A stretch of 64,000 nucleotides of DNA. It comes from Coriobacteriales bacterium OH1046 (GTDB lineage: Bacteria; Actinomycetota; Coriobacteriia; Coriobacteriales; Atopobiaceae). A program made the translations under genes and the position numbers. Within the stretch, counting starts at the first letter, position 1. Each line of letters opens with the position of its first letter. The stretch spans positions 1 through 64,000 of the forward strand of contig RQYE01000010.1 of the NCBI GenBank assembly GCA_004010535.1, in the 5' to 3' direction. Positions 10,283 through 23,598 of this stretch are shown here, in pieces. The notes below the pieces were generated by a model. That model was not told where the DNA came from. It saw nothing but the letters and a program-made list of their open reading frames with translations, and made no database searches.

Positions 10283-11413
10283 ATGATGAAGGTTGCTATT
10301 ATTACCCTTCATACCGTCTCAAATTACGGATCCTGCCTGCAGGCCTATGCCACACAGATGATCTTCGATGGGCTTGGGTTCGAGGCTGAGATTGTGGACT
10401 ATTATCGTAAAGATAACCTTCCCGAATACGCTGTCGAAAAGGCATTCAACGGTCGACGCCTGCGGAAATACCGGGACGTCTGGAAGAAGGCCCCGCAGCT
10501 TAAAAAAGCGCTTTCCATGCCTATGGGCATCATCGTCAAACGGCAACGCAAACCCTTTGATGATTTTAGGAAAAAGTATCTCAACCTCTCAGAGCATATG
10601 TATAGATCTGCTGAGGAGCTAGAGAAGAATCCTCCTGAGGCTGACATATATTGCACTGGCAGTGACCAAGTCTGGAATAGCATCTGGAACCAGGGCTTCG
10701 AGGAACCCTTCTATCTAACCTTTGCACCCGAGGGAAAGAGACGCATTGCCTTTGCGGCGAGTATCGGACGCGAGTTTATCGATGAGTGGGAGAAGCCCCT
10801 CATGCGGGATGCGCTCTCGAAGTACTCTGCGATTTCCATGCGAGAGGCTTCCGGTGTGGCAGTTCTCAATAGCCTGGGGTTTCCAGACGCCGAGCTCGTG
10901 CTCGATCCCACGCTCATGCTTACCAAGGATGAATGGTCAAAGATCGCTACAATGCCCGCCAGTGTCAAGGAGCCATACATCCTCGTCTATCAATTGAACA
11001 AAGATGACAAGCTTGTCTCATATGTTGAATCGGTTGCACCCAAATACAACATGGGTGTCGTGAAAATCTCCTATGGTATCTACGATATGATGAAATCAGC
11101 GAAGACGCTTATTGCGCCGAGCGTTAATGACTTCATAGGCCTCTTCCTGAACGCTTCGTATGTGATTACCGACTCGTTTCACGCCACCGCATACTCACTG
11201 AACTTCGGAGTTCCCTTTACGACGATCGCTCCCGAGCGGTTTAGCACGCGTATCGCCACCATTCTCGCCCTGACCGGGACGGAGGACAGGATGCTCAGCA
11301 GTGCTGATGATATGGCGATGTTCGAGCGTCCGATTGACTTCACCCGTGTTGCGGCTAGGCTTAGCGCAAAGCGCGAGAGCAGCATGGCGTTTCTCAGGGA
11401 AGCGTTGGCGTAG
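10283..11413 (+). CDS. Polysaccharide pyruvyl transferase family protein
   Basis: 376 residues of the PF04230 family (WcaK/CsaB type), which adds ketal-linked pyruvate from PEP to sugar residues and so gives the glycan negative charge. Diagnostic features are the start VAIITLHTVSNYGSCLQAYA, the TGSDQVWN motif in the middle, FAASIGRE, and VITDSFHATAYSLNFGVPF near the C-terminus with the conserved histidine. In Gram-positive and actinobacterial clusters the same family commonly sits next to an F420-dehydrogenase-beta-like gene, as it does three genes on. Confidence 0.85.
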   Translation: MMKVAIITLHTVSNYGSCLQAYATQMIFDGLGFEAEIVDYYRKDNLPEYAVEKAFNGRRLRKYRDVWKKAPQLKKALSMPMGIIVKRQRKPFDDFRKKYLNLSEHMYRSAEELEKNPPEADIYCTGSDQVWNSIWNQGFEEPFYLTFAPEGKRRIAFAASIGREFIDEWEKPLMRDALSKYSAISMREASGVAVLNSLGFPDAELVLDPTLMLTKDEWSKIATMPASVKEPYILVYQLNKDDKLVSYVESVAPKYNMGVVKISYGIYDMMKSAKTLIAPSVNDFIGLFLNASYVITDSFHATAYSLNFGVPFTTIAPERFSTRIATILALTGTEDRMLSSADDMAMFERPIDFTRVAARLSAKRESSMAFLREALA

Positions 11414-11416
11414 CAG

Positions 11417-12835
11417 ATGGCTGATAAGTCCTTGGATAGCGACTCAACATTCCTCGCCTTTGCGAGGTCGACGGGCATTTTCTTCATCGGTAATTCCATG
11501 AGCAAGGTCATCACTCTTTTGCTCATTCCGCTTTATACCAATACTCTTCCTGCTGAGGACTACGGATATTACGATCTCTCCATCACTTACATTACCTTGC
11601 TCACGTCCTTCTTGTACTGCGACATTTGGTCAAGTGTCATGAGGGTAATGCGTGACGATTTGAAAGGCGAGGCTCCTTGGAGGGTTGTAACCGCCGGCTG
11701 GTCTATATTTGGCGGTTCAACGCTTCTATATATCATGATAGCATTAACAGCTTCGCTCTTCGTCAACGTACCCTGTCTCGGCCTTATTCTGCTCTATGGC
11801 GTGACATCCAATGTGCAGTCGATGTTTTCTTGTATTGCTCGTGGCAGGGGTAACAATGTTGACTTTGCTGTATCAGGGGTTATGTGTACGCTTGTCAATG
11901 TGGGGTTCAATTTACTTCTGATTTTGGCATGCGGACTCGGTTACGAGGCCCTTTATGTGTCTTATGCTGCCGGATTTATGGTCCAGTGCCTCTATCTTTA
12001 CCTTCGTATGAGCATGTGGCGGCATTGTGCACTTCCCAGTTGGCGGCAGGTGAAGGAGCTTCTCGTCTACTCCGCTCCGCTTGGTATCAACTCGGTTGCC
12101 TACTGGCTCCTCACTAGTCTGAGTCGTGTCGTCGTATCAACGGTTCTCTCACTTGCAGCGAATGGTGTATTCGCTATCGGCTCCAAATTCGGCTCGACAA
12201 TCGCGCTTGCCACTACCTGTTTCACCCTTGCTTGGCAAGACATCGCCTTCACGAAGGAAATGCGACCGGCACCCTTTTACTCCCGTGCCGTGACGAAGTA
12301 CTCCGGCTTTCTTCTAACATGTACCGCTATCTTGCTTCCCTCAATCGCCCTGTTTTTCCCGTTGCTCGTAGGATCGGACTATTCGGAGGCCTACTCTATC
12401 ATTCCATCGTTTCTCTGGATTGCTGTCGTGAGTGCCATCTCGACATTCATCGGTAATATCTTTTATGTTATCAAGGATACAAGGACTATTGGCGTGTCCA
12501 TGGTTATATCGTGTCTTATCAACATCCTGCTTGTGTATCCTATGACGATAGGTATGGGATGCCTCGGCGCAAACCTGTCGGTACTTGTAGCATTCGTTGC
12601 CAACATTGCAATTCGCATCGTCATACTTGGCAGGAAGATAGGCCTCAGACTTTTTTGGAATGAAATCCTCCTACCCCTCTGCCTGCTTTCCCTCTGCTCT
12701 ATAGCCTACTTCGTTGGCGGGGCAGTGGCCAACGGAGTCTCTCTTTTTATCGCGATTATCGGTTTCTCCTTCCTTTATCAAGACAAGGTGACACTACTCA
12801 TCTCTTCTCTTGGCGGACGGTTCTTGAGGAGGTAA
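11417..12835 (+). CDS. Oligosaccharide flippase (Wzx-like)
   Basis: 472 residues with roughly 12-14 membrane helices and the MATE/MOP-type layout of polysaccharide flippases. The N-terminal GNSMSKVITLLLIPLYTNTL and the following acidic loop LPAEDYGYYDLSITY are typical. It moves lipid-linked repeat units across the membrane for the EpsG-like polymerase. Together, the priming transferase, flippase and polymerase make this a Wzx/Wzy-dependent pathway. Confidence 0.88.
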   Translation: MADKSLDSDSTFLAFARSTGIFFIGNSMSKVITLLLIPLYTNTLPAEDYGYYDLSITYITLLTSFLYCDIWSSVMRVMRDDLKGEAPWRVVTAGWSIFGGSTLLYIMIALTASLFVNVPCLGLILLYGVTSNVQSMFSCIARGRGNNVDFAVSGVMCTLVNVGFNLLLILACGLGYEALYVSYAAGFMVQCLYLYLRMSMWRHCALPSWRQVKELLVYSAPLGINSVAYWLLTSLSRVVVSTVLSLAANGVFAIGSKFGSTIALATTCFTLAWQDIAFTKEMRPAPFYSRAVTKYSGFLLTCTAILLPSIALFFPLLVGSDYSEAYSIIPSFLWIAVVSAISTFIGNIFYVIKDTRTIGVSMVISCLINILLVYPMTIGMGCLGANLSVLVAFVANIAIRIVILGRKIGLRLFWNEILLPLCLLSLCSIAYFVGGAVANGVSLFIAIIGFSFLYQDKVTLLISSLGGRFLRR

Positions 12836-12841
12836 GCATCT

Positions 12842-13894
12842 ATGGAATTCCGCGAGCCAATCAAAATCCTCGCAGTGCGTGATCGAGATATCGAGGCTCT
12901 TGAACGAGCCGCATCAGGCGGCGCATTTTCGGTTCTTGCCCGACCTATCATTGAGGCAAAAGGCGTTGTTTTCGGTGCAAGAATGTTCGATGGCGGCGAA
13001 GTCCGTCATGTTGCCGCGAGGAGTCTTGATGAGGTCTCTACATTGCAAGGCAGCGCTTATGTCCAAAGTGACACATCGGGTGTGTATTGCGAAGTTGCGA
13101 ATGCCGTTCAGGCTGGTATCCCCACGCTGTTCGTCGGGACGCCCTGCCAATGTGCCGCCGTTGTCTCCTATTTGAAGGCTAGGAAAAGTATCGTTGATCT
13201 TGAGAGCTGCAACAACCTCATAGTTTGCGACTTGATTTGCCATGGGGTTCCAAATGCCGAGCTGTTCCACTCGTACCAAGTATGGCTTGCACGTAAGTGC
13301 AGGACCGATGACGGTGTTCATTCGTTTAAGTTCCGCACGAAGCGCAACGGATGGGGACTCTACTACTACTACTACTACTATCGGAATGGCAGAAAACACG
13401 AAGTCTGCGAACCTGGTGACTACGACCCATATTATGCCTCCTTCCTTCGTGGTGAGACGTATAGAGAATGCTGCTACAGATGTCCGTTTGCAAGGCGCGA
13501 ACGAGTGACAGATTTCACCATAGGAGATTACTGGGGTATAGAGTCCATTCATCCAGATTTTTATAATTCCAAGGGCGTGTCCGTGGTCTTGGTAAATACG
13601 GAGAAGGCCTTGCATTATTTCGACGATTACGCTGCGATGGGCTGCGATCATATACTCTCTGATTTAGATTCTGCTGTCCGTGAAAATCACAATCTGAATG
13701 CTCCAACGAAAAGGCCAATCTCTCGCGATTCGTTTCTTGTGGCAATTGAACAGCGGAGAGTTGAAGGGGATATGGATGTGCTGTTCGACAAAGATCTCAA
13801 GCCGAAGAAAAGTGTGAAACGATTTGTAAAGCGTCTCCTGCCGGCTGGGACATTCAGCGCACTCAAGCGTGCCGTGAAGATGGTGACACGATGA
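12842..13894 (+). CDS. Coenzyme F420 hydrogenase/dehydrogenase beta-subunit family protein
   Basis: 350 residues with FrhB_N and FrhB_C features: SGGAFSVLARPII, QGSAYVQSD, GTPCQCAAVVSYL and CDLICHGVP, then a cysteine-rich YRECCYRCPFARRERVTDFTIGDYWG. Members inside glycan clusters are thought to be flavin/Fe-S redox enzymes acting on sugars, not F420 hydrogenases. The usual N-terminal ferredoxin domain is missing here and is encoded by the next, overlapping gene. A run of seven tyrosines at about residues 174-180 comes from a TAC repeat. Substrate unknown. Confidence 0.75.
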   Translation: MEFREPIKILAVRDRDIEALERAASGGAFSVLARPIIEAKGVVFGARMFDGGEVRHVAARSLDEVSTLQGSAYVQSDTSGVYCEVANAVQAGIPTLFVGTPCQCAAVVSYLKARKSIVDLESCNNLIVCDLICHGVPNAELFHSYQVWLARKCRTDDGVHSFKFRTKRNGWGLYYYYYYYRNGRKHEVCEPGDYDPYYASFLRGETYRECCYRCPFARRERVTDFTIGDYWGIESIHPDFYNSKGVSVVLVNTEKALHYFDDYAAMGCDHILSDLDSAVRENHNLNAPTKRPISRDSFLVAIEQRRVEGDMDVLFDKDLKPKKSVKRFVKRLLPAGTFSALKRAVKMVTR

Positions 13895-14121
13895 CGAGGA
13901 CATTTACTGTGAACGACATCAAAATAACGGGCATGTGCTGCGGATGTGCAGCCTGTTTGGCAATATGCCCCAAGCAGGCTATTGAGATGGGAGTGGACAG
14001 CTACGGGTACTCGGTTCCCATGCTTAACGAAACGGTATGCGTTGAGTGTGGGCTGTGCATGACGTGTTGCCCCATGAGGGCAGCTGCTTGTGGATACGAT
14101 GATCTGGGAATTGTGGGGTGA
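13891..14121 (+). CDS. Small 2[4Fe-4S] ferredoxin-like protein
   Basis: 76 residues carrying two classical clusters: Cys16, 19, 22 and 26 followed by Pro, and Cys50, 53, 56 and 60 followed by Pro. It overlaps the end of the F420-dehydrogenase-beta-like gene by 4 bases (ATGA). In most relatives this ferredoxin domain forms the N-terminus of that protein, so the two genes look like a split and reordered version of one enzyme. It is the last intact gene of the glycan operon; insertion-sequence debris follows directly. Confidence 0.85.
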   Translation: MTRTFTVNDIKITGMCCGCAACLAICPKQAIEMGVDSYGYSVPMLNETVCVECGLCMTCCPMRAAACGYDDLGIVG

Positions 14122-15033: not shown

Positions 15034-15357
15034 TTACTGTTTGCTAAGTTTTGCGTTTACAATGTTGCGAAGCACATCGTGCTCAGATGTCGTGACCATT
15101 AAAAGATCCATTGCATGGAGCAGAAGCAAGGAGAACGGAATCTCCATGCCGTTGTTCTGAGGAGCCATAAGCTGCTCGAACTGGATGCGATGAGCTTCGG
15201 CCAACATCTCTTGAGCCTCATTCAATCTTATCGAAGCGAGCCCATAATCAGCCTTATTGATAGCATCCAAAGCCTCATAAACCAGGGCGCGGCCTTCCCC
15301 AGCGTTGCTAATTAGTTCCATGCAAATGGAGCTGGATTCTTCCATGGTCATTTCCAT
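15034..15357 (-). CDS. PTS lactose/cellobiose-type IIA component
   Basis: 107 residues of the all-helical EIIA-Lac family. The phosphorylated histidine is His81 in SLLLLHAMDLLM. The usual family sequence is HAQDHLM, so the second residues of this block are altered but the active histidine is kept. It takes phosphate from HPr and passes it to the IIB encoded just upstream on the same strand. It is the last gene of a seven-gene minus-strand operon starting at 20822. GAGGAGAAT precedes the ATG. Confidence 0.88.
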   Translation of the reverse strand: MEMTMEESSSICMELISNAGEGRALVYEALDAINKADYGLASIRLNEAQEMLAEAHRIQFEQLMAPQNNGMEIPFSLLLLHAMDLLMVTTSEHDVLRNIVNAKLSKQ

Positions 15358-15413
15358 ATCGTATTCTCCTCTGTTGCGCCTTCCTCAGCAAAGGCAAAGA
15401 CTTAATAGGAATA

Positions 15414-15749
15414 TTACTGGTCAGCTTCGGGTAGTAATTTGAGCATTGCCTGCAGGATGGCATCAGCCTTTGCCAAGCCGTATTCTCTCATGGGGATAAC
15501 CATAAAAGGAAGACCGGGGTAGCCCTTCTCAGCAGCATACTTCTTTATATCGTCCAATTGTCCCTTAACCTGAGGAGCAAGAAGGACGATATCCACGCAT
15601 CCAAAATCACAGGTGCGGTATCGAAGACTGGCATAGCAGCAGATGTCCATCTCGATTCCATTTTTTGGAGCCGTTTCGCGAAGAGCATCGACTATCATGC
15701 TGGATGACATTGCAGAAGCACAGAATATTACAGCACTAATTCGCCTCAT
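15414..15749 (-). CDS. PTS lactose/cellobiose-type IIB component
   Basis: 111 residues from ATG 15749, preceded by a strong CAGGAGGAAAAA ribosome site; an ATG at 15851 in the same frame has no such site. The N-terminus MRRISAVIFCASAMSSSM carries the phosphocysteine Cys10 in the P-loop of EIIB-cellobiose/chitobiose proteins (usual form C-x-x-G-x-S-T-S, here less canonical). The later VDIVLLAPQVKGQLDDIKK is the typical second half of the fold. It phosphorylates the sugar brought in by the IIC partner. Confidence 0.88.
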   Translation of the reverse strand: MRRISAVIFCASAMSSSMIVDALRETAPKNGIEMDICCYASLRYRTCDFGCVDIVLLAPQVKGQLDDIKKYAAEKGYPGLPFMVIPMREYGLAKADAILQAMLKLLPEADQ

Positions 15750-15879
15750 TTTTTCCTCCTGCGAAGGATGACCCGTGATTATATATATACGGACTGCATT
15801 CCTTTCAAATATCGCCGTTAACGCTATCCCAAATGAGTGCGGCTTCAGCAAGAATTCCTTCAGATTCGAAGATTATATG

Positions 15880-17184
15880 TTATTCGGCCTCAGTGTTTGC
15901 CACCTCCTCATCGAGACAACGCTTCTCATAGAGCTTGGCGAATGGATACCAGATAATGCCCATGATGACAATCAGGATCGCCTGAGCAATAACGTTACGC
16001 CAATCGCCGCCGGTGGAGAGATAGGGCTGAAGGAGAGGAGGCGTAGTCCAGGGAATCTGAATGTAGGCAGGGCTAATCCATCCAAAAGCGGTTAGTACAT
16101 AACCGTACATAGTGCCGAGAAGAGAGGTCAGGAAAATGAAAGGTATGAACATAAGGGGGTTTAGAACTATAGGGGCGCCAAAAAGGACTGGCTCATTCAC
16201 GCAGAAAACGCCAGGCATGATGGACAGCCGAGCGACCTCACGCAAATGTGCGGACTTTGATTTGAGCCAGATAAACAGTAAGGGAAGAGTCATGCCAACG
16301 CCACCGATCATTGTCCAACTGTAGAAGAAGGGCTCTGTGATAATGTGGGGCATGGGCTGACCAGCCGCAACGGAAGCGGCGTTTTCTGCGATGTTGGCCA
16401 TCAGGAAGGGGTACATTACGCCCCACACGGTAAAGGAACCGCCATGGATACCGACGAACCAGAGAGCCTGAAGAAGCAGAGCGCAGATAAACGCGGCATA
16501 CCAAGTGTCGGAAACAGAAATCAGGGGGCTGACAATGAGGCCCAAAACAGCGTTAAGGTCGAATCCGATAACCACACGCAACAGCCAGAAGAAGACTAAA
16601 AGGATGGTCATGGGCAGCAGGGAAGCAAAGCTTTGAGCGATTCCACTGGGGACCACCTTGGGAAGTCGGATAATAACATTATGCTTATATGCAAAGTGCA
16701 TGAACTCAACGACAATGATAGCAATAACAAAAAGCGTGAACATACCCTTTGCGGAGAAGCCCGAGATGCTCAAAGTACCTGTTGCAAGATCTACCGGCGC
16801 AACAGTGATGATAAAACAAGCGACGGTTACGATAGCAATAATAGTAGGATCTTGCTCTTCGTACATTCTGGCCAACTCAGAACCTAGGGAGACGGCAAGA
16901 TAAAGCGTCATGAAGTTCATCGTCATGGTGTAGAGAATGTTTAGCATCTCGTTATAAGGTGCCATTACATCTGCCCATGACTGGACGGGTAAGTTTGTAA
17001 AGATCAAAGGAATAGAGCCGACGATTATTAAGGGAATGGTACGGATGAGAGCTGCACGGATAGCCGCAAAGTGGCGCTGGTTGCCCATTTTTACAAGGGG
17101 AGGTGCGAGATACCGCTCAATCCAAGCACCAAATCTGTCCATTAGAGCTTCAAACTGGCTGGCTTTAATTTGCTTTTCCTCCAT
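15880..17184 (-). CDS. PTS lactose/cellobiose-type IIC permease
   Basis: 434 residues with about ten membrane helices, of the CelB/ChbC type. Hallmarks are the N-terminal FGAWIERYLAPPLVKMGNQRHFAAIR, the mid-protein WFVGIHGGSFTVWG (substrate-binding His-Gly-Gly region) and CVNEPVLFGAPIVLNPLMFIPF. The ATG follows GGAGGAAAGGGAG. This permease class takes up beta-linked or N-acetylated disaccharides and glycosides, so the island feeds on some such compound. No glycosidase is encoded nearby. Confidence 0.92.
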   Translation of the reverse strand: MEEKQIKASQFEALMDRFGAWIERYLAPPLVKMGNQRHFAAIRAALIRTIPLIIVGSIPLIFTNLPVQSWADVMAPYNEMLNILYTMTMNFMTLYLAVSLGSELARMYEEQDPTIIAIVTVACFIITVAPVDLATGTLSISGFSAKGMFTLFVIAIIVVEFMHFAYKHNVIIRLPKVVPSGIAQSFASLLPMTILLVFFWLLRVVIGFDLNAVLGLIVSPLISVSDTWYAAFICALLLQALWFVGIHGGSFTVWGVMYPFLMANIAENAASVAAGQPMPHIITEPFFYSWTMIGGVGMTLPLLFIWLKSKSAHLREVARLSIMPGVFCVNEPVLFGAPIVLNPLMFIPFIFLTSLLGTMYGYVLTAFGWISPAYIQIPWTTPPLLQPYLSTGGDWRNVIAQAILIVIMGIIWYPFAKLYEKRCLDEEVANTEAE

Positions 17185-17270
17185 CTCCCTTTCCTCCCTT
17201 TCTTAGTCGAATTGTCAAAAGCAACCTCGGGATTATATGGAGCAGTCGAACAGTTCGTTGCGCAGGAAAA

Positions 17271-18356
17271 CTACACTCTTGTGTGAACGAAATCTGTAAA
17301 GTCGTTATGGACATCCCTGTTTGGATCGTAACCCGCATGCTCTGGTGCATAAACCGACAACACTTGAACAGCCAAAGTCATAAGCAGCAGAGACTCGGTA
17401 AGAGGGAAGCTGGGTATCAGGAAACGTCCTTCTTCCTCGCTCTCCTCTCCAGTCGAGTCAAACATAAGGAGATGGCCAGTTATACCTCTGAGGTATTTCC
17501 AGCTCCTCTCGGTCAACGCGGCGAGGGGATGGCTTGTTTTAAACATGATCACAGTGCTTTTGCTCGAGATGGCTCTATGCATGCCGTGGGAGAACTCGCC
17601 GATGTCATTGAACATGGTGGGGATGCACATGGTCTCCATTAGCTTAAGCTGGCATTCCATGGCAGTACCGTAATTGATACCGTAGCCCAAAGCATAGAGC
17701 TCGCTGAGAGATGCGCCAAAATCATTCTCCTCGCACCAGCGGACCAGACGCTCACCAGTGGGCTGAAGAAGAGACACCTGGGCACGGAGTTCAGCAGTAA
17801 CTGCTTCTCTCTGCTCCCAAGTGATGGCACCACGACATACTCCGAAAGCAAGGGCAAGGAGTAATAACAGGGTAAGCGTAGCGCTGTAGCCCTTGGTCTT
17901 AGCGTTGCTATTCTCAGAACCACAACGAAGCATCAGTGCGTCGTCAGCTTGCTTTGCAACGGGGGAGGTGGAGATATCGGTGATGCCCAGAGTCTTGAAG
18001 CCCAGTTTCTTTGCCATATCAAGCGCATCTATAGCACCGCTGCTGGTTCCCGTCTGGCTTACGACGATTACAAGGGTTTTTTCTCTGCTCTCTTTTTGGA
18101 GAAGAGGGGCGTTGTAGCTAAAAATCGCGGGGACAAATGTGTAGACTCTGAGTCCGGCCATTCTAGAGAAGAAATCCAACGCTGTCACCGTAGCATTGTA
18201 TGAGCTGCCGTGGGCAACAAGATATACTGCCTCCAGACCGACGGCTTCGGCCTTTGCATAGGCCATTACGCTCTCATCACAGAGCAGCCTTTCCAAAACA
18301 TTCGGCTCCTGAGCAATATAGCTCCACATGATACTTCTGCCCATATCAAACCTCAC
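17271..18356 (-). CDS. SIS-domain sugar isomerase/deaminase-like protein
   Basis: 361 residues with two SIS domains like GlmS C-terminus, AgaS and FrlB. First-domain motifs are LVAHGSSYNAT and VVSQTGTSSGAIDAL; the second domain has YALGYGINYGTAMECQLKLMET and GEFSHGMHRAI. Such proteins bind phosphorylated amino sugars or fructosamines and isomerise, deaminate or deglycate them. The open frame starts at GTG 18356, overlapping the previous stop as GTGA; ATG 18344 is also possible. It is one of two different SIS proteins in the operon. Confidence 0.8.
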   Translation of the reverse strand: MRFDMGRSIMWSYIAQEPNVLERLLCDESVMAYAKAEAVGLEAVYLVAHGSSYNATVTALDFFSRMAGLRVYTFVPAIFSYNAPLLQKESREKTLVIVVSQTGTSSGAIDALDMAKKLGFKTLGITDISTSPVAKQADDALMLRCGSENSNAKTKGYSATLTLLLLLALAFGVCRGAITWEQREAVTAELRAQVSLLQPTGERLVRWCEENDFGASLSELYALGYGINYGTAMECQLKLMETMCIPTMFNDIGEFSHGMHRAISSKSTVIMFKTSHPLAALTERSWKYLRGITGHLLMFDSTGEESEEEGRFLIPSFPLTESLLLMTLAVQVLSVYAPEHAGYDPNRDVHNDFTDFVHTRV

Positions 18357-19063
18357 AGGTTCATGATTCGCGCAGCGTTGCCGCAGAGCATCATTTCCAT
18401 GTGCACGGGGTTTTTGCAGACATACGCAAGCTTCTCCAGTTCTTGAGATGGGGAGCCAAAGGGAGCATCGGTGGAGAAAAGGATTTTCTCAGGACCCGCT
18501 ATCTCGTAAGCGCTCTTTATAGCAGGAACATAGGCGCCGCAAGTGCTCAGATAGAAATTTGGGATATCGTGCGCTAGCTCGCAGGCGCGATCTGCCATAA
18601 GTGGAACTCCAATATGGAAAAGCACCACAGGAACGTCGGGATAGGATCTGGCCATCTCCGCCCATTTATCAGGGATAGAGAACATATCAGACTGCCCATG
18701 GACAACAACGCATTTCTTGTACTTGCGGCATAAACAAAAAAAGGGATCAAGAACACTGTGGCGATCAGCGCTATAGCCAAAGCGGATTGCATTCATCTTG
18801 AGACCGTAAAAGCCATAATCTTTGAAGCAACGCTCCAGCTCTATCTCACCATCAATATCCCAAGGGTTGATAACAGCAAAGCCCAGAGTCCTGTTGGGAA
18901 AGCGCTTGGTGCAATCGTAGATATAGTCATTATCAATGGTCTCAAGCTGGGAGCAAATCATGGACATATCGATTTTTGCATTATCCATGAGTTCGATAAG
19001 GGATTCGACCTTATAATTCTCGCCTTTTTTCATTCCAATATGAGCGAGCATATCAATGATCAT
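18353..19063 (-). CDS. Amidohydrolase_2 family protein (copy A, partly canonical)
   Basis: 236 residues, TIM-barrel metal hydrolase or decarboxylase family PF04909. The usual N-terminal D-x-H-x-H is D4-x-L6-x-H8, so the first histidine is gone, but His8, His122 (VVVHGQ), His150 (LFHIG) and Asp199 (STDAP) are kept. It aligns without gaps over about 210 residues with the next gene upstream in the operon, so the pair arose by duplication. It overlaps both neighbours by a few bases. The reaction is unknown; acting on a phosphorylated PTS product is an inference from context. Confidence 0.75.
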   Translation of the reverse strand: MIIDMLAHIGMKKGENYKVESLIELMDNAKIDMSMICSQLETIDNDYIYDCTKRFPNRTLGFAVINPWDIDGEIELERCFKDYGFYGLKMNAIRFGYSADRHSVLDPFFCLCRKYKKCVVVHGQSDMFSIPDKWAEMARSYPDVPVVLFHIGVPLMADRACELAHDIPNFYLSTCGAYVPAIKSAYEIAGPEKILFSTDAPFGSPSQELEKLAYVCKNPVHMEMMLCGNAARIMNL

Positions 19064-19793
19064 CGATTATCCCCTCCAGATGGAAAACACGAGCCGCGTT
19101 CTTCCAAAGGACTTTCTCAACGCCATCGGGAAATTCCTTGGCTGCGTTACGGACCTTTATCAACTCAAGTTCGTAATAATTGCATTCTGGTGTACCGGTT
19201 CCCAGCATGACCTTGTCAACGCCAGAGGTCTTCAGGGCACGGTGAATGTTGAAATCCATGCCTCCAGAGGTATCGAGATAGATGTTTGGATTTTTTTCAG
19301 CTATAACGACAGCGCTGGCGTTATCATACTGCAAGCCCATACGGCCCATGATGATGTTAACACGAGGAAAGTCTTTCGCTAGCTGATTGAAGAAAACGGG
19401 GCTACTGAACACTTCTGCGGCACCATAGCACCAAACAACAGCATTATACCGATGGCAGATTTCAAGAAGAGGATAGAACACCTCACGTTCGCATAGCATG
19501 TAGCCATGGCGTAAGGGATGCATATACAAGCCCTTGAAACCCTTGAGCTTCAGGGCATCTTCCAGCTCTACAGCCGCATCATCTCTCCAAGGGTTGACAG
19601 TGTAGAGGCCGATGAAGCGATCAGGGTACCTGAGGATGGCGTTATAAACGGATTCGTTATCCAAACTCTCTGGATGGCAGTTTATAACCGCCCTATCAAT
19701 ACCCGCAGCATTCATCTGATCAAGTAGGGATTCCGCTGTTATTTCTGGTTTGAATCTGTGTCGACCAATGGTATTGGAAATATCGATAATCAA
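19053..19793 (-). CDS. Amidohydrolase_2 family protein (copy B, metal ligands lost)
   Basis: 246 residues from TTG 19793 behind an AGGGGG site. It is clearly a paralogue of copy A, sharing MIID, the VNPW motif near residue 66-69, GF(K/Y)GL and an NAAR-x-(M/F)-x-L end. Every metal ligand visible in copy A is replaced: His8 by Thr8, His122 by Cys122, His150 by Gly150 and Asp199 by Thr199 (Ser occupies position 6). Catalysis of the usual metal-dependent kind is therefore unlikely. It may be a regulatory or scaffolding partner forming a heteromer with copy A. Confidence 0.72.
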   Translation of the reverse strand: MIIDISNTIGRHRFKPEITAESLLDQMNAAGIDRAVINCHPESLDNESVYNAILRYPDRFIGLYTVNPWRDDAAVELEDALKLKGFKGLYMHPLRHGYMLCEREVFYPLLEICHRYNAVVWCYGAAEVFSSPVFFNQLAKDFPRVNIIMGRMGLQYDNASAVVIAEKNPNIYLDTSGGMDFNIHRALKTSGVDKVMLGTGTPECNYYELELIKVRNAAKEFPDGVEKVLWKNAARVFHLEGIIDDH

Positions 19794-19805
19794 AGAAATA
19801 ACCCC

Positions 19806-20822
19806 CTAATGATCCTTGGTCCAATCGGGTCCGAATTGAAGCGCCAAGAATGTTTCGGCAGCAACGCTCTCCGCCAAAGGAACAAGCGTGTCGGAAACCT
19901 CAGGCATCGAGACGGCGTACGCCCTATCCAGCGCGGGCACAGGTTTGTTGGAGTAGACCATCACCTTGCCTCCGTGGTCAAGGATGAAGTTGAGCATCTT
20001 GAGATCCTTGGTACCCTCTTCAAGGATGGGATTGAAAATCTGAGCCATATACTTTTCGGCCATCTTACTGCTATGGTACTGACCGTGAGCGTAATCAGCC
20101 AGCTCCCAAACGGCGGCGCAGTTATGCAGGCCCTCCCTATACGCCAGAGAGAGCTGACGGGCGGTGGCAAGAGAGGTATCGTTTGCCAGCAAATCGTAGA
20201 GAACAACGCCCTTGGCAAAGCTCAGCATCTCTTCCGATGGTTTCTGATAATTAGCTATCCAATCGCAGCACCACGCAACGACTTTATCCACATCTGCCCA
20301 GAACTCCGCATCAAGCTCATCGGTAAGGCGATGGGCAATAATGTTGAGGATAAGCATGGTGTTTTCAAATGTTTTGCTGGTAATGGAGAGTTCCTTCTCA
20401 GAGCCAATAGGCAGAGGAAAATCAGCAATCGCCTGTAGTTTACAGCCATCGCTGTTATATATACCTACAATCTTGGTCACCTTCTTGGCTTTCTCTACAA
20501 GCTCGATCACCTCTGAGGAGTTTCCGGACTGGGAAATCACTATCACCAAAGTCTTGGGAGTGATATGACCGAATTGAAAGCGAGAAAGCTCGTGGGAGCT
20601 GAAGGCAACAGCAGGTATTCCATGGCTGGTAAGATAGCTCCGAACTGAATCGCACGCATAGAGAGAACTGCCCATACCGGTAAGAACTACCTTGTCCATT
20701 TCATCTGCAATAAACGCCTTGAAAATTCTCTCTACCAGTTCAGATTTATCTTCGCGGAAAAACTTGACGGTCCGCTTCAGCAAATCCCCCTGCTCGAGCA
20801 CTTCTTTTAAAAAACTGTTCAT
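19806..20822 (-). CDS. SIS-domain sugar isomerase/deglycase-like protein
   Basis: 338 residues, first gene of the minus-strand operon. SIS motifs are VVLTGMGSSLYACDSV and VIVISQSGNSSEVIELV; the second half carries SLAYREGLHNCAAVWELADYAHG, where the glutamate/histidine cluster of GlmS-type isomerases normally lies. Relatives include FrlB (fructoselysine-6-phosphate deglycase) and AgaS. Having two dissimilar SIS proteins, a disaccharide PTS and two amidohydrolases points to a nitrogen-containing sugar conjugate as substrate, but this is inference. Confidence 0.8.
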   Translation of the reverse strand: MNSFLKEVLEQGDLLKRTVKFFREDKSELVERIFKAFIADEMDKVVLTGMGSSLYACDSVRSYLTSHGIPAVAFSSHELSRFQFGHITPKTLVIVISQSGNSSEVIELVEKAKKVTKIVGIYNSDGCKLQAIADFPLPIGSEKELSITSKTFENTMLILNIIAHRLTDELDAEFWADVDKVVAWCCDWIANYQKPSEEMLSFAKGVVLYDLLANDTSLATARQLSLAYREGLHNCAAVWELADYAHGQYHSSKMAEKYMAQIFNPILEEGTKDLKMLNFILDHGGKVMVYSNKPVPALDRAYAVSMPEVSDTLVPLAESVAAETFLALQFGPDWTKDH

Positions 20823-21132
20823 TTCAATTCTTCTCTATCCTGCTTTTTAGCACATGCGGATGTTTACTTGGAAAGCACTTAAAGCCCTTTCTTTGCACCG
20901 GTTCGTATAAGTTCTTATTTGTTTGTTTAAACCTGATCTGAATTATATGTCTTTGAAAAGTAGAGTGAGGCTATTCTTATAGTATAGGTGCTCACAAAGG
21001 TACTGAAAGTACGACTATATAAACGTTGGAGATTTGGAAATTAACCATTCTGTTCTTTTTGGTACATTTTTCATCGATATTTCTTTTAAATGGTGCTATT
21101 ATGTTTTATGTCGATTTTATGTAGGGAGGACT
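20823..21132. promoter_or_regulatory. Divergent control region of the PTS/SIS operon and its DeoR regulator
   Basis: AT-rich 310-base gap between divergent genes, the expected place for operators of the DeoR protein. A perfect TATAAT lies on the minus strand at 20942-20947 and could be the -10 of the operon, although no clear -35 accompanies it. On the plus strand TTGAAA (20953) and TATAGT (20978) are 19 bases apart, a suboptimal promoter for the regulator. A short palindrome GTACT-GAA-AGTAC at 21000-21012 is a candidate operator. None is decisive. Confidence 0.4.
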
Positions 21133-21900
21133 ATGCTTCAAAATATTCGGCTTGAACGGATAATGGATGTCCTCATACAGGAAAAGGCTGTTGATATACA
21201 GACTTTAGCGACATATCTGGGCGTAACGCCTAAAACGGTGCGCCTGGATTTGGAAAAGCTTGAAAACGCTCATTTCCTTAAGCGTGTCCACGGCGGTGCA
21301 ATTTTGCCAAATCAAACAAATACCGTTCCGTTGCACTTCCAGCGCGATGAGAACCTCCCAAAAAAGGCTCTTATCGCCCGCAAGGCACTGGAGATGCTCC
21401 ACGAAGGCGACGTGGTCCTTCTGGACGACGGCTCTACTTCTCTTGAACTGGCAAAGTTACTGGGCGGGGTCAACCTGACCGTCCTTACAAATGATGTCTT
21501 TATTATCAACGAGTTAATGGATAAGCCCAACATCGACCTATATGTCATCGGCGGCTCATTGAAGCGCAACCATGGACGCTATGTTATTACTGGTGAGGAT
21601 TCTATACAGTTTATAAGAAAATATCGTGTGAACAAGCTATTTTTAGGTATCAGCACCATTGATACCGAAGACGGGCTGATGATATTTTACTATGGCGATC
21701 GTTCAACTAAAAGAGCCTTCATGGCGGCTGCCGACGAGGTAATATGCCTAGCGGATTCCTCGAAGTTCAGCCGTACAGCCTTTACCAGAGTGGCAGGCGT
21801 GAGTGAACTCGACACCATAATAACCGATTCCGGTCTTCCGGAGGAGGAAGCAGTGCGTTACCGTACCCTAGGCATACGGGTTATATATGCGGATAAGTAA
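21133..21900 (+). CDS. DeoR/GlpR-family transcriptional regulator
   Basis: 255 residues. The N-terminal winged helix reads RLERIMDVLIQEKAVDIQTL and then GVTPKTVRLDLEKLE with the following HGGAIL motif, all typical of DeoR proteins. The C-terminal part is the sugar-phosphate sensor fold (VVLLDDGSTSLELAK, LTND, GGSLKRNHGR, ADSSKFSR). I start it at ATG 21133 behind GGGAGGA, not at 21034. It is divergent from the PTS/SIS/amidohydrolase operon and very likely represses it until a phosphorylated intermediate builds up. Confidence 0.9.
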   Translation: MLQNIRLERIMDVLIQEKAVDIQTLATYLGVTPKTVRLDLEKLENAHFLKRVHGGAILPNQTNTVPLHFQRDENLPKKALIARKALEMLHEGDVVLLDDGSTSLELAKLLGGVNLTVLTNDVFIINELMDKPNIDLYVIGGSLKRNHGRYVITGEDSIQFIRKYRVNKLFLGISTIDTEDGLMIFYYGDRSTKRAFMAAADEVICLADSSKFSRTAFTRVAGVSELDTIITDSGLPEEEAVRYRTLGIRVIYADK

Positions 21901-22210
21901 GCCTGTTGCCCAAGTTATGGACTGCGCCCCTCTTGGATGAGGATCGCATCACCCTGGCCCACATCGAGCACGGCAGACGCGCGCAGGAGCGAGGTAGCGG
22001 TCGCTCGCATACCAAAATTCCACTGAACAGGCAAGACAGTGTTTTGCTTCACTTAGAAGTGAGCCGTGCCGTAACAGATTATTGAGCCGCCTTCGTCACG
22101 AAAAGCGAGCCGTATGTGATGACGGCACCTGCATTCGACCGGGCACCGCCAAGCTCCAGTAGAGTTCTCCACAGAGACTTCCCCAAACCCTGGAGGAGGT
22201 TGACGGAAGG

Positions 22211-22650
22211 ATGACGATGCCCAACGATGCCCAAGTCAATGCAGGACTGTATCAGGGAGATGGCGTTCGGGGCTGCTCGCAGAGGGAGATTGCGCGGGAT
22301 CTGCACATCAGCAGGAGCACGGTCGCGAAGTACCTCTCGGAGGACCTGTCCCCACGTCCGCACGCGGTCGCCGGCCGCACAAGCCCGACCATGGCGCCCT
22401 TCGCCGAGGAGGTCGTCTCCTGGCTCGGGGCCGACCGGCTGGCGCCCAAGAAGCAGCGGCGCACGGCGAAGCGCGTGTACGATCGGCTCGTGTCCGGGTA
22501 TGGGTTTCCGGGCTCGCGGTCGATAGTCGAGCGGTTCGTGCGCAATTGGAGGGATTCGAGGCCTCCCGCGCCTGCGGCGGGCTTTCTCGAGCTTGGCTGG
22601 CCATCGCGCGCCGCACGGGGCGACTACGGCAATGCCGTCACGGGGCCCGG
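22211..22650 (+). pseudogene. istA: IS21-family transposase istA, N-terminal remnant
   Basis: About 140 codons resemble IstA: the helix-turn-helix CSQREIARDLHISRSTVAKYL, the linker with RTAKRVYDRLV and SRSIVERFVRNWR, and the start of the catalytic domain FLELGWPSRAARGDYGNAV. Intact relatives have Glu-Trp-x-Pro-Gly-x-Ala-Gln-x-Asp-Phe-Gly at this point. Similarity stops there: the frame remains open but its composition no longer looks like the DDE domain, and no istB follows. A GGAGGAGG-type ribosome site is still present before the ATG. Confidence 0.65.
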
Positions 22651-23598
22651 CAGCCCCGTCGGGGAGGAGGGGATGGCTGCGGCGGATGCCGACGGGCTGC
22701 TCGCGCATCTCGGATCCCGGCATCCCCCGGATGCCGGCGTATTTGCCCTCGGCAACGTTCCCGCCGGCCTTTCCGAGGACGATGCGGACCTTGCGCCGGG
22801 CATCCTCGCTCGCATCCCCGAGCACGACGATAGCCCCGGAGGATACGCGCGCGAAGATGCTGCGGCCGCGCCCATCGGAGACTCGGGAATGGCATCCGAG
22901 GGGGCGTCGAGCGAAAGGGCCGAGGATCGCACAAGCGTGCTCGGCAAGCCCAGCCGCATTGGCCTGGGCGATCGAACAGGGGGTTCCGGGGGCAGGCCAA
23001 TGGTGGGGGGGCTTGGTCGCCGCCCATTGCGAATGCCAGCGCAAGCGGCCCTTGCTCGCGGCCGCTTGGAACCGGGCCTGCAGCTAGATTGGCATTCGGG
23101 CCAGCGGTCCCTGCGGATCGGCCACGCCACCCTCTGCTTGCAGCCTATCACTCTCGGCCCGGCAGGTGCTTCGCCCTGCTTCAGACGATTTTTCTGCCGT
23201 GGTCGTCTGCATGCAACCTAGCTATCTCTCTGCAGGTCAAAGCATGTAGTTAGTCGGCATGCTGGTGTTCACGTTTCCGTAGGCCGAACTTGTCACTCTT
23301 CAATCGAAGTGCGCACTGCCCTGCTTACGGCGATTGCGGGCATGTAGAGAGGCAGCGCCGAGAGGATGGCGCAATGGCGAGCGATCCTCGACGGGATTGC
23401 CTCCGACCGGGCGATGCTCTCGCTCCGGGACAAGCACGCCGGGAAGAACCTCTGCGCGTCGGGCATAGGTCTCGTGTAGTGCTGTGCGACGACGAGGGAG
23501 ATACTGGAGGCAATCGCGTGATGCGTAAGGCATATGCCTATAAGGTAAAGCGCGAGTTCAGAACCGACTTCAGCTTTAGATGCAAATGAGGGAGATAT
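22651..23598. other. Degenerate GC-rich stretch after the istA remnant
   Basis: Several long open frames on both strands overlap here, as happens in GC-rich sequence, but none has recognisable motifs. Around 23370-23475 a plus-strand piece with AILDGIASDRAMLSLRDKHA looks like real protein, but it meets stops at once on continuing, so it is probably another gene fragment. I do not recognise its family. Confidence 0.3.

Follow-up and report, generated by a model that had tools for sequence, protein, structure and literature searches.

Organisation of the locus

The window analysed here is a stretch of 64,000 nucleotides. At positions 15034-21900, Pfam and NCBIfam searches define a seven-gene operon on the minus strand and, divergent from it on the plus strand, a gene for a DeoR-family regulator. 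Read from the regulator side, the order of the operon genes is SIS2, AH2, AH1, SIS1 and the genes for the PTS subunits IIC, IIB and IIA. The features are, by position:

15034-15357, minus strand: PTS IIA subunit of the lactose/cellobiose family (PF02255, 3e-22; orthologues 59-68% identical)
15414-15749, minus strand: PTS IIB subunit of the lactose/cellobiose family (PF02302, 3e-9; orthologues 53-69% identical)
15880-17184, minus strand: PTS IIC, membrane subunit of the LacE family (PF02378, 8e-49; TIGR00410, 294 bits; orthologues 65-82% identical)
17271-18356, minus strand: SIS1, predicted phosphosugar SIS enzyme, GfrE-like (PF01380; NCBIfam profile like that of GfrE)
18353-19063, minus strand: AH1, member of the Amidohydro_2 family retaining the greater part of the metal site (PF04909, 9e-26; ligand columns)
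19053-19793, minus strand: AH2, paralogue of AH1 with all metal ligands replaced (PF04909, 7e-24; ligand columns)
19806-20822, minus strand: SIS2, predicted phosphosugar SIS enzyme, divergent (PF01380, 1e-11)
20823-21132, no strand: divergent intergenic promoter/operator region from SIS2 to the regulator gene, assigned by position only
21133-21900, plus strand: DeoR-family regulator (PF00455 and PF08220; divergent orthologues 58-67% identical in loci L029-L032)

All genes are intact, and the lactose-type PTS, the two SIS genes and the two Amidohydrolase_2 genes listed in the initial annotation are all present. AH2 overlaps AH1 by 11 bp and AH1 overlaps SIS1 by 4 bp. The starts of IIB and of the regulator were reset to the ATG codons at 15749 and 21133, respectively, on the basis of the orthologues and of ribosome-binding sites. 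The DeoR-family protein is probably the repressor of the operon; a loose alignment of the SIS2-regulator intergenic regions of five loci revealed no clear operator. Genes for a kinase, a glycosidase or a deacetylase of the NagA type are absent from the operon, as had been noted from the outset, and from all of the orthologous operons described below.

On the right of the locus, window positions 22079-23221 are GC-rich (0.66) and contain an open reading frame which by eye resembles part of an IS21-type transposase; this segment may be a remnant left by mobile DNA. On the left, positions 10283-14120 are of low GC and carry genes resembling, by eye, those for a polysaccharide pyruvyl transferase, a flippase, an F420 dehydrogenase and a ferredoxin, which have the appearance of a capsule-type cluster. 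Inspection for an element boundary gave neither a convincing flanking repeat nor a tRNA at the locus.

The PTS transporter

The IIC subunit scores 294 bits with the lacE family model TIGR00410, above its cut-off of 236. It remains below the cut-off for the ChbC equivalog (145 bits, cut-off 760) and for the CelB equivalog (294 bits, cut-off 434), and the PTS scores against the ChbC, CelB and LacE equivalogs of NCBIfam are all far under the cut-offs. The earlier assignment to the cellobiose/chitobiose class thus holds for the PTS family and no further. The IIB subunit shows the phosphorylation-loop cysteine in the motif CASAMSSS, and by sequence the lactose-family IIABC is complete. The host genome carries an Enzyme I gene on another contig, so the PTS of the operon can be powered. 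HPr is encoded next to the orthologous operon in L029, L030 and L032 (checked with Pfam in L029, by eye in the others) and Enzyme I near the operon in L031 and L032 (by eye).

Conservation and distribution of the operon

Scanning of about 85,000 species genomes with AH1 yielded five close relatives, 71-74% identical, in Lachnospiraceae MD308, an uncultured Lachnospiraceae bin, Lachnospiraceae 3-2, Christensenella UBA5394 and Clostridium ultunense. The genome-neighbourhood search proposed in the initial annotation showed the operon to be conserved in all five. The eight genes, including the regulator, are in identical order in the three Lachnospiraceae and in Christensenella UBA5394 (AH1 72-74% identical), while in C. 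ultunense the operon is rearranged and followed by a Gfo/Idh oxidoreductase gene. Such maintenance of gene order across genomes indicates a real unit and not a chance cluster. The SIS1 gene of Christensenella (L032 8653-9968) is split over two frames in its metagenome assembly, by sequencing error or damage.

Sampling for SIS2 within the respective orders recovered the starting genome alone in the host's order (347 genomes, absent from the other 346), in that of the Lachnospiraceae (392 genomes) and in that of C. ultunense (150 genomes). Among the 200 genomes of the order of Christensenella it recovered, besides the starting genome, a single remote relative with different surroundings. In L098 (323-6805) a distant SIS2 relative, which gave no lead, lies amid genes whose families were judged by eye: a PfkB-like kinase gene on one side and, on the other, genes resembling those for an alcohol dehydrogenase, a glycyl radical enzyme and an activase of the latter. 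The operon is therefore rare in the sampled genomes. The GC content of the locus genes is 0.467-0.509 versus 0.591 for the whole window, and from this low GC together with the rarity a transfer of the operon from Bacillota into the host is likely. Transfer had already been proposed from a GC lower than that of the neighbours; this is true of the window as a whole, but the genes left of the locus (6-15 kb) are likewise near 0.50. Scans of viral contigs based on AH1 gave no matches in one case and, in the others, two distant ones in unrelated neighbourhoods. For AH1 and AH2, plasmid matches did not exceed about 31% identity; one of them led to a Klebsiella mannose-PTS operon.

The SIS enzymes

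SIS1 aligns over its full length with GfrE of E. faecium (26.6% over 353 aa, 6e-32); identity to the E. faecium and Klebsiella GfrE references is 25-27%, which is too low to fix specificity. The two reference gfr operons were called by their architecture, i.e. a sigma-54 regulator, IIA-IID and two SIS genes. The Klebsiella operon was taken as gfr because of this architecture and because its second SIS protein is near-identical to PDB 2a3n, which we take to be Salmonella STM4540. SIS1 and GfrE have a common NCBIfam profile, with GlmS best, NagB-II second and FrlB weak. GfrF has its best NCBIfam score with FrlB, a model that SIS2 does not match. By these comparisons SIS1 is closest to GfrE and to the GlmS isomerase domain, rather than to FrlB or AgaS, and SIS2 forms a branch of its own. 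The description of both as SIS proteins was correct; their attribution to the FrlB/AgaS kind is refined by these results.

The residues Lys238, Glu241 and His257 of SIS1 are the equivalents of GlmS K485, E488 and H504 and are invariant among orthologues. In SIS2, Glu230 and His246 are invariant and the K485 position is occupied by Ala or Ile. The catalytic Glu/His pair matching E488 and H504 is invariant across the orthologues of both enzymes. A lysine occupies the K485 position in GlmS, AgaS, both GfrE proteins and SIS1, but not in SIS2, FrlB, GfrF or the solved FrlB-like proteins 3eua, 3fkj and 9otj. Within this small reference set, the pattern suggests that SIS1 handles 2-amino-aldose 6-phosphates and that SIS2 does not.

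The properties of SIS1 are also the basis of the strongest rival to the interpretation preferred below. The sugar imported by the PTS could be glucosamine or galactosamine in N-acylated form; AH1, together with AH2, would deacylate it in the place of NagA, SIS1 would be a glucosamine-6-phosphate deaminase/isomerase and SIS2 an additional isomerase. The ranking of the GlmS isomerase and then the NagB-II profiles for SIS1 fits such a route, as does the conserved lysine of the aldosamine enzymes, and a kinase would be unnecessary. In Listeria a PTS IIC gene has a SIS1-like gene after it, and GH9 and ROK genes adjoin the two, an arrangement compatible with glucosamine oligosaccharides. The route would, however, leave the presence of two SIS enzymes and two amidohydrolases unexplained, ordinary NagA genes are widespread, and we know of no PF04909 amino-sugar deacetylase. 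On balance we consider it rather unlikely.

The amidohydrolases AH1 and AH2

AH1 and AH2 score 91.7 and 85.5 bits with PF04909 (gathering cut-off 26.4) and are 33% identical. They are paralogues, as initially annotated, but not equivalent. Of the metal site (HxH, His, His, Asp pattern) AH1 keeps His8, His122, His150 and Asp199, the first histidine of HxH being replaced by Leu6, a leucine in all six orthologues. In AH2 the ligand columns read Ser, Thr/Ile, Tyr, Arg and Gly, with no metal ligand left, and most of these residues are invariant among orthologues.

The replacement of all metal ligands could be read as the decay of an AH1 duplicate without a role. AH2 is nevertheless 64-70% identical to its orthologues, and comparison of two close relatives gives it a dN/dS of about 0.08, a value near that of SIS2, from which it follows that AH2 is under strong purifying selection. 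The AH pair is present in all six operon genomes and, IIC left aside, shows higher conservation than the two SIS enzymes. Stripped copies have, in addition, arisen separately in another type of PTS operon. Decay is thus very improbable, and was rejected on the dN/dS value and the conservation of the replacing residues.

The best-scoring solved relative of the AH proteins is 3cjp. Of the PDB entries to which an activity is assigned, the best relatives are the decarboxylases of gamma-resorcylate, 5-carboxyvanillate and salicylate, for which similarity is short and weak, and lactonases belong to the same amidohydrolase superfamily. Other relatives sit in varied carbohydrate clusters; one, on a Niallia plasmid (L016 3541-9735), is found in a C-glycoside deglycosidase cluster with a CGDB domain, Gfo/Idh and isomerases. 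A creatininase-family gene was seen near AH1-type genes in C. ultunense (L033 12777-13550) and in an unrelated cluster (L018 12922-13716). The decarboxylases, the lactonases and the deglycosidase cluster would all be in line with AH1 and AH2 being sugar lactonases/isomerases or aromatic acid decarboxylases, acting on a lactone-, acid- or aromatic-containing glycoside. This is improbable for a conserved operon without glycosidase, dehydrogenase or aldonate enzyme, whose two Glu/His SIS enzymes are ill-suited to lactone or aromatic chemistry.

An intact and a ligand-poor Amidohydro_2 protein also occur together in operons of the mannose PTS family. Such operons were found in two genomes from a different family of the host's order, in one genome from the family of the host itself, in a member of the Clostridia and on a Klebsiella plasmid:

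L021 6740-13985, L023 3665-10900, L024 6639-13179 and L086 542-9380: operon GntR-AH-IIA-IIB-IIC-IID-AH-IF2B-BtpA
L015 9001-14724 (Klebsiella pneumoniae multi-replicon plasmid CP067510.1): mannose-PTS operon with the AH pair and an ADP-ribosylglycohydrolase-family gene

In L024 the IIA gene is placed after BtpA, and in L086 HPr- and Enzyme I-like genes follow the operon. In the place of SIS genes these operons have the IF-2B-like and BtpA genes or, in Klebsiella, the ADP-ribosylglycohydrolase gene. A literature search found no published description of them. The tree and the AU test rejected a common origin of AH2 and the stripped copies found in mannose-PTS operons (p-AU 0.0006). Grouping of AH1 with the intact copies gave a p value of 0.043, and AH1 and AH2 as sisters were not rejected (0.43). 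The intact-plus-stripped arrangement therefore arose at least twice.

A further pair of adjacent intact and stripped amidohydrolases is found in L022 (338-6240) together with an amidase, an SDR protein and a permease of the cytosine/purine/allantoin type. This cluster is possibly for N-heterocycle catabolism, and the company of the amidase and the permease is a hint at C-N bond chemistry.

Proposed function of the operon

The interpretation we prefer, with a probability of roughly 0.45, is that of a PTS-fed catabolic operon for a sugar N-linked to an amine-containing moiety, in which SIS enzymes would release the sugar and the amidohydrolases would act on the amine moiety. By homology, IIABC would import the conjugate and phosphorylate its sugar, probably at C6. 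SIS1, being GfrE-like, would convert a 2-amino-2-deoxyaldose 6-phosphate conjugate (Heyns type, or glucosamine 6-phosphate) to fructose 6-phosphate and the amine. For SIS2 the substrate would be the alternative form, probably a 1-amino-1-deoxyketose 6-phosphate of Amadori type, and the products an aldose 6-phosphate and the amine. Within the amine moiety AH1 may hydrolyse an amide or lactam bond, whether the moiety is still attached or already released, and AH2 may be its partner subunit or may have a rebuilt, metal-free site. The sugar phosphates would enter glycolysis, so that neither kinase nor glycosidase is needed.

This reading draws on the kept gene order, the GfrE-like SIS1, the Glu/His pair, the lysine pattern at the K485 position, the availability of Enzyme I and HPr, the conservation of the AH proteins and the C-N chemistry hinted at by the L022 pair. 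Counting against it, a glucosamine-6-phosphate deaminase would look much like SIS1, and the assignment of SIS2, which does not match the FrlB model, leans on a single residue for which the reference proteins are few. The carbohydrate clusters that hold other relatives of the amidohydrolases are, moreover, too varied to establish amide chemistry. The best candidate substrate remains, as first suggested, a conjugate of the amino-sugar or Amadori type. As a more doubtful extension, AH1 and the stripped AH2 might form one heteromeric enzyme with an undescribed reaction, two unrelated PTS classes having separately acquired such pairs for novel phosphorylated sugar conjugates.

Amine-linked sugars are products of heated food and of glycated protein present in the gut and serve as private nutrients for gut bacteria; the known bacterial routes for them are, to our knowledge, few. 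That dedicated amidohydrolases accompany Gfr-like SIS enzymes in a conserved operon is a pointer to some substrate for which the literature searched yielded no tests. A conserved stripped amidohydrolase, apparently evolved more than once, also raises a general question on metal-free members of a large enzyme family.

Comparison with known systems

In agreement with the initial annotation, no description of the full gene set was found in the literature searched, which covered few subscription journals. The mannose-PTS operons described above share one intact and one ligand-poor Amidohydro_2 protein beside a PTS, but have an unrelated PTS family, no SIS genes and a separately evolved pair. With the PF04909 decarboxylases and lactonases (gamma-resorcylate decarboxylase, LigW, LigI) and with 3cjp the AH proteins have the superfamily in common; similarity is weak, AH1 lacks the first metal-ligand histidine and AH2 all of the ligands. 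The chitobiose and cellobiose operons (chb, cel) have IIA, IIB and IIC of the same lactose/cellobiose family, whereas the present operon is without phospho-glycosidase or deacetylase (ChbG) and its subunits are far under the Chb/Cel equivalog cut-offs. The Frl system of E. coli (frlABCD) likewise relies on a SIS deglycase acting on a phosphorylated amine-sugar conjugate, but has the permease FrlA, the kinase FrlD and an epimerase. None of these is present here, and kinase and permease are absent in all six operon genomes.

The closest described design is Gfr (gfrABCDEF) of Salmonella and Enterococcus, a PTS with two SIS deglycases for glucoselysine and fructoselysine (PMC12675984). PTS import and phosphorylation are combined with two SIS enzymes in one operon in both systems, and SIS1 is GfrE-like over its full length. 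The operon could on these grounds be a plain gfr (fructoselysine/glucoselysine) system with its PTS swapped and the amidohydrolases as accessories. The Gfr PTS is, however, of the mannose family (IIABCD) and under a sigma-54 activator instead of a DeoR regulator, and SIS2 is not GfrF/FrlB-like by profile, though it keeps the Glu/His pair and lacks the lysine as FrlB does. The amidohydrolases, absent from gfr, are present in six of six genomes and are better conserved than the SIS enzymes. A plain gfr system is accordingly quite improbable. With PTS family, regulator and second SIS type all differing and an amidohydrolase pair added, we would not class the operon as a member of gfr, although it may well work like gfr; what is new with respect to Gfr is its transporter of the lactose family, the distinct type of its SIS2 and its pair of amidohydrolases.
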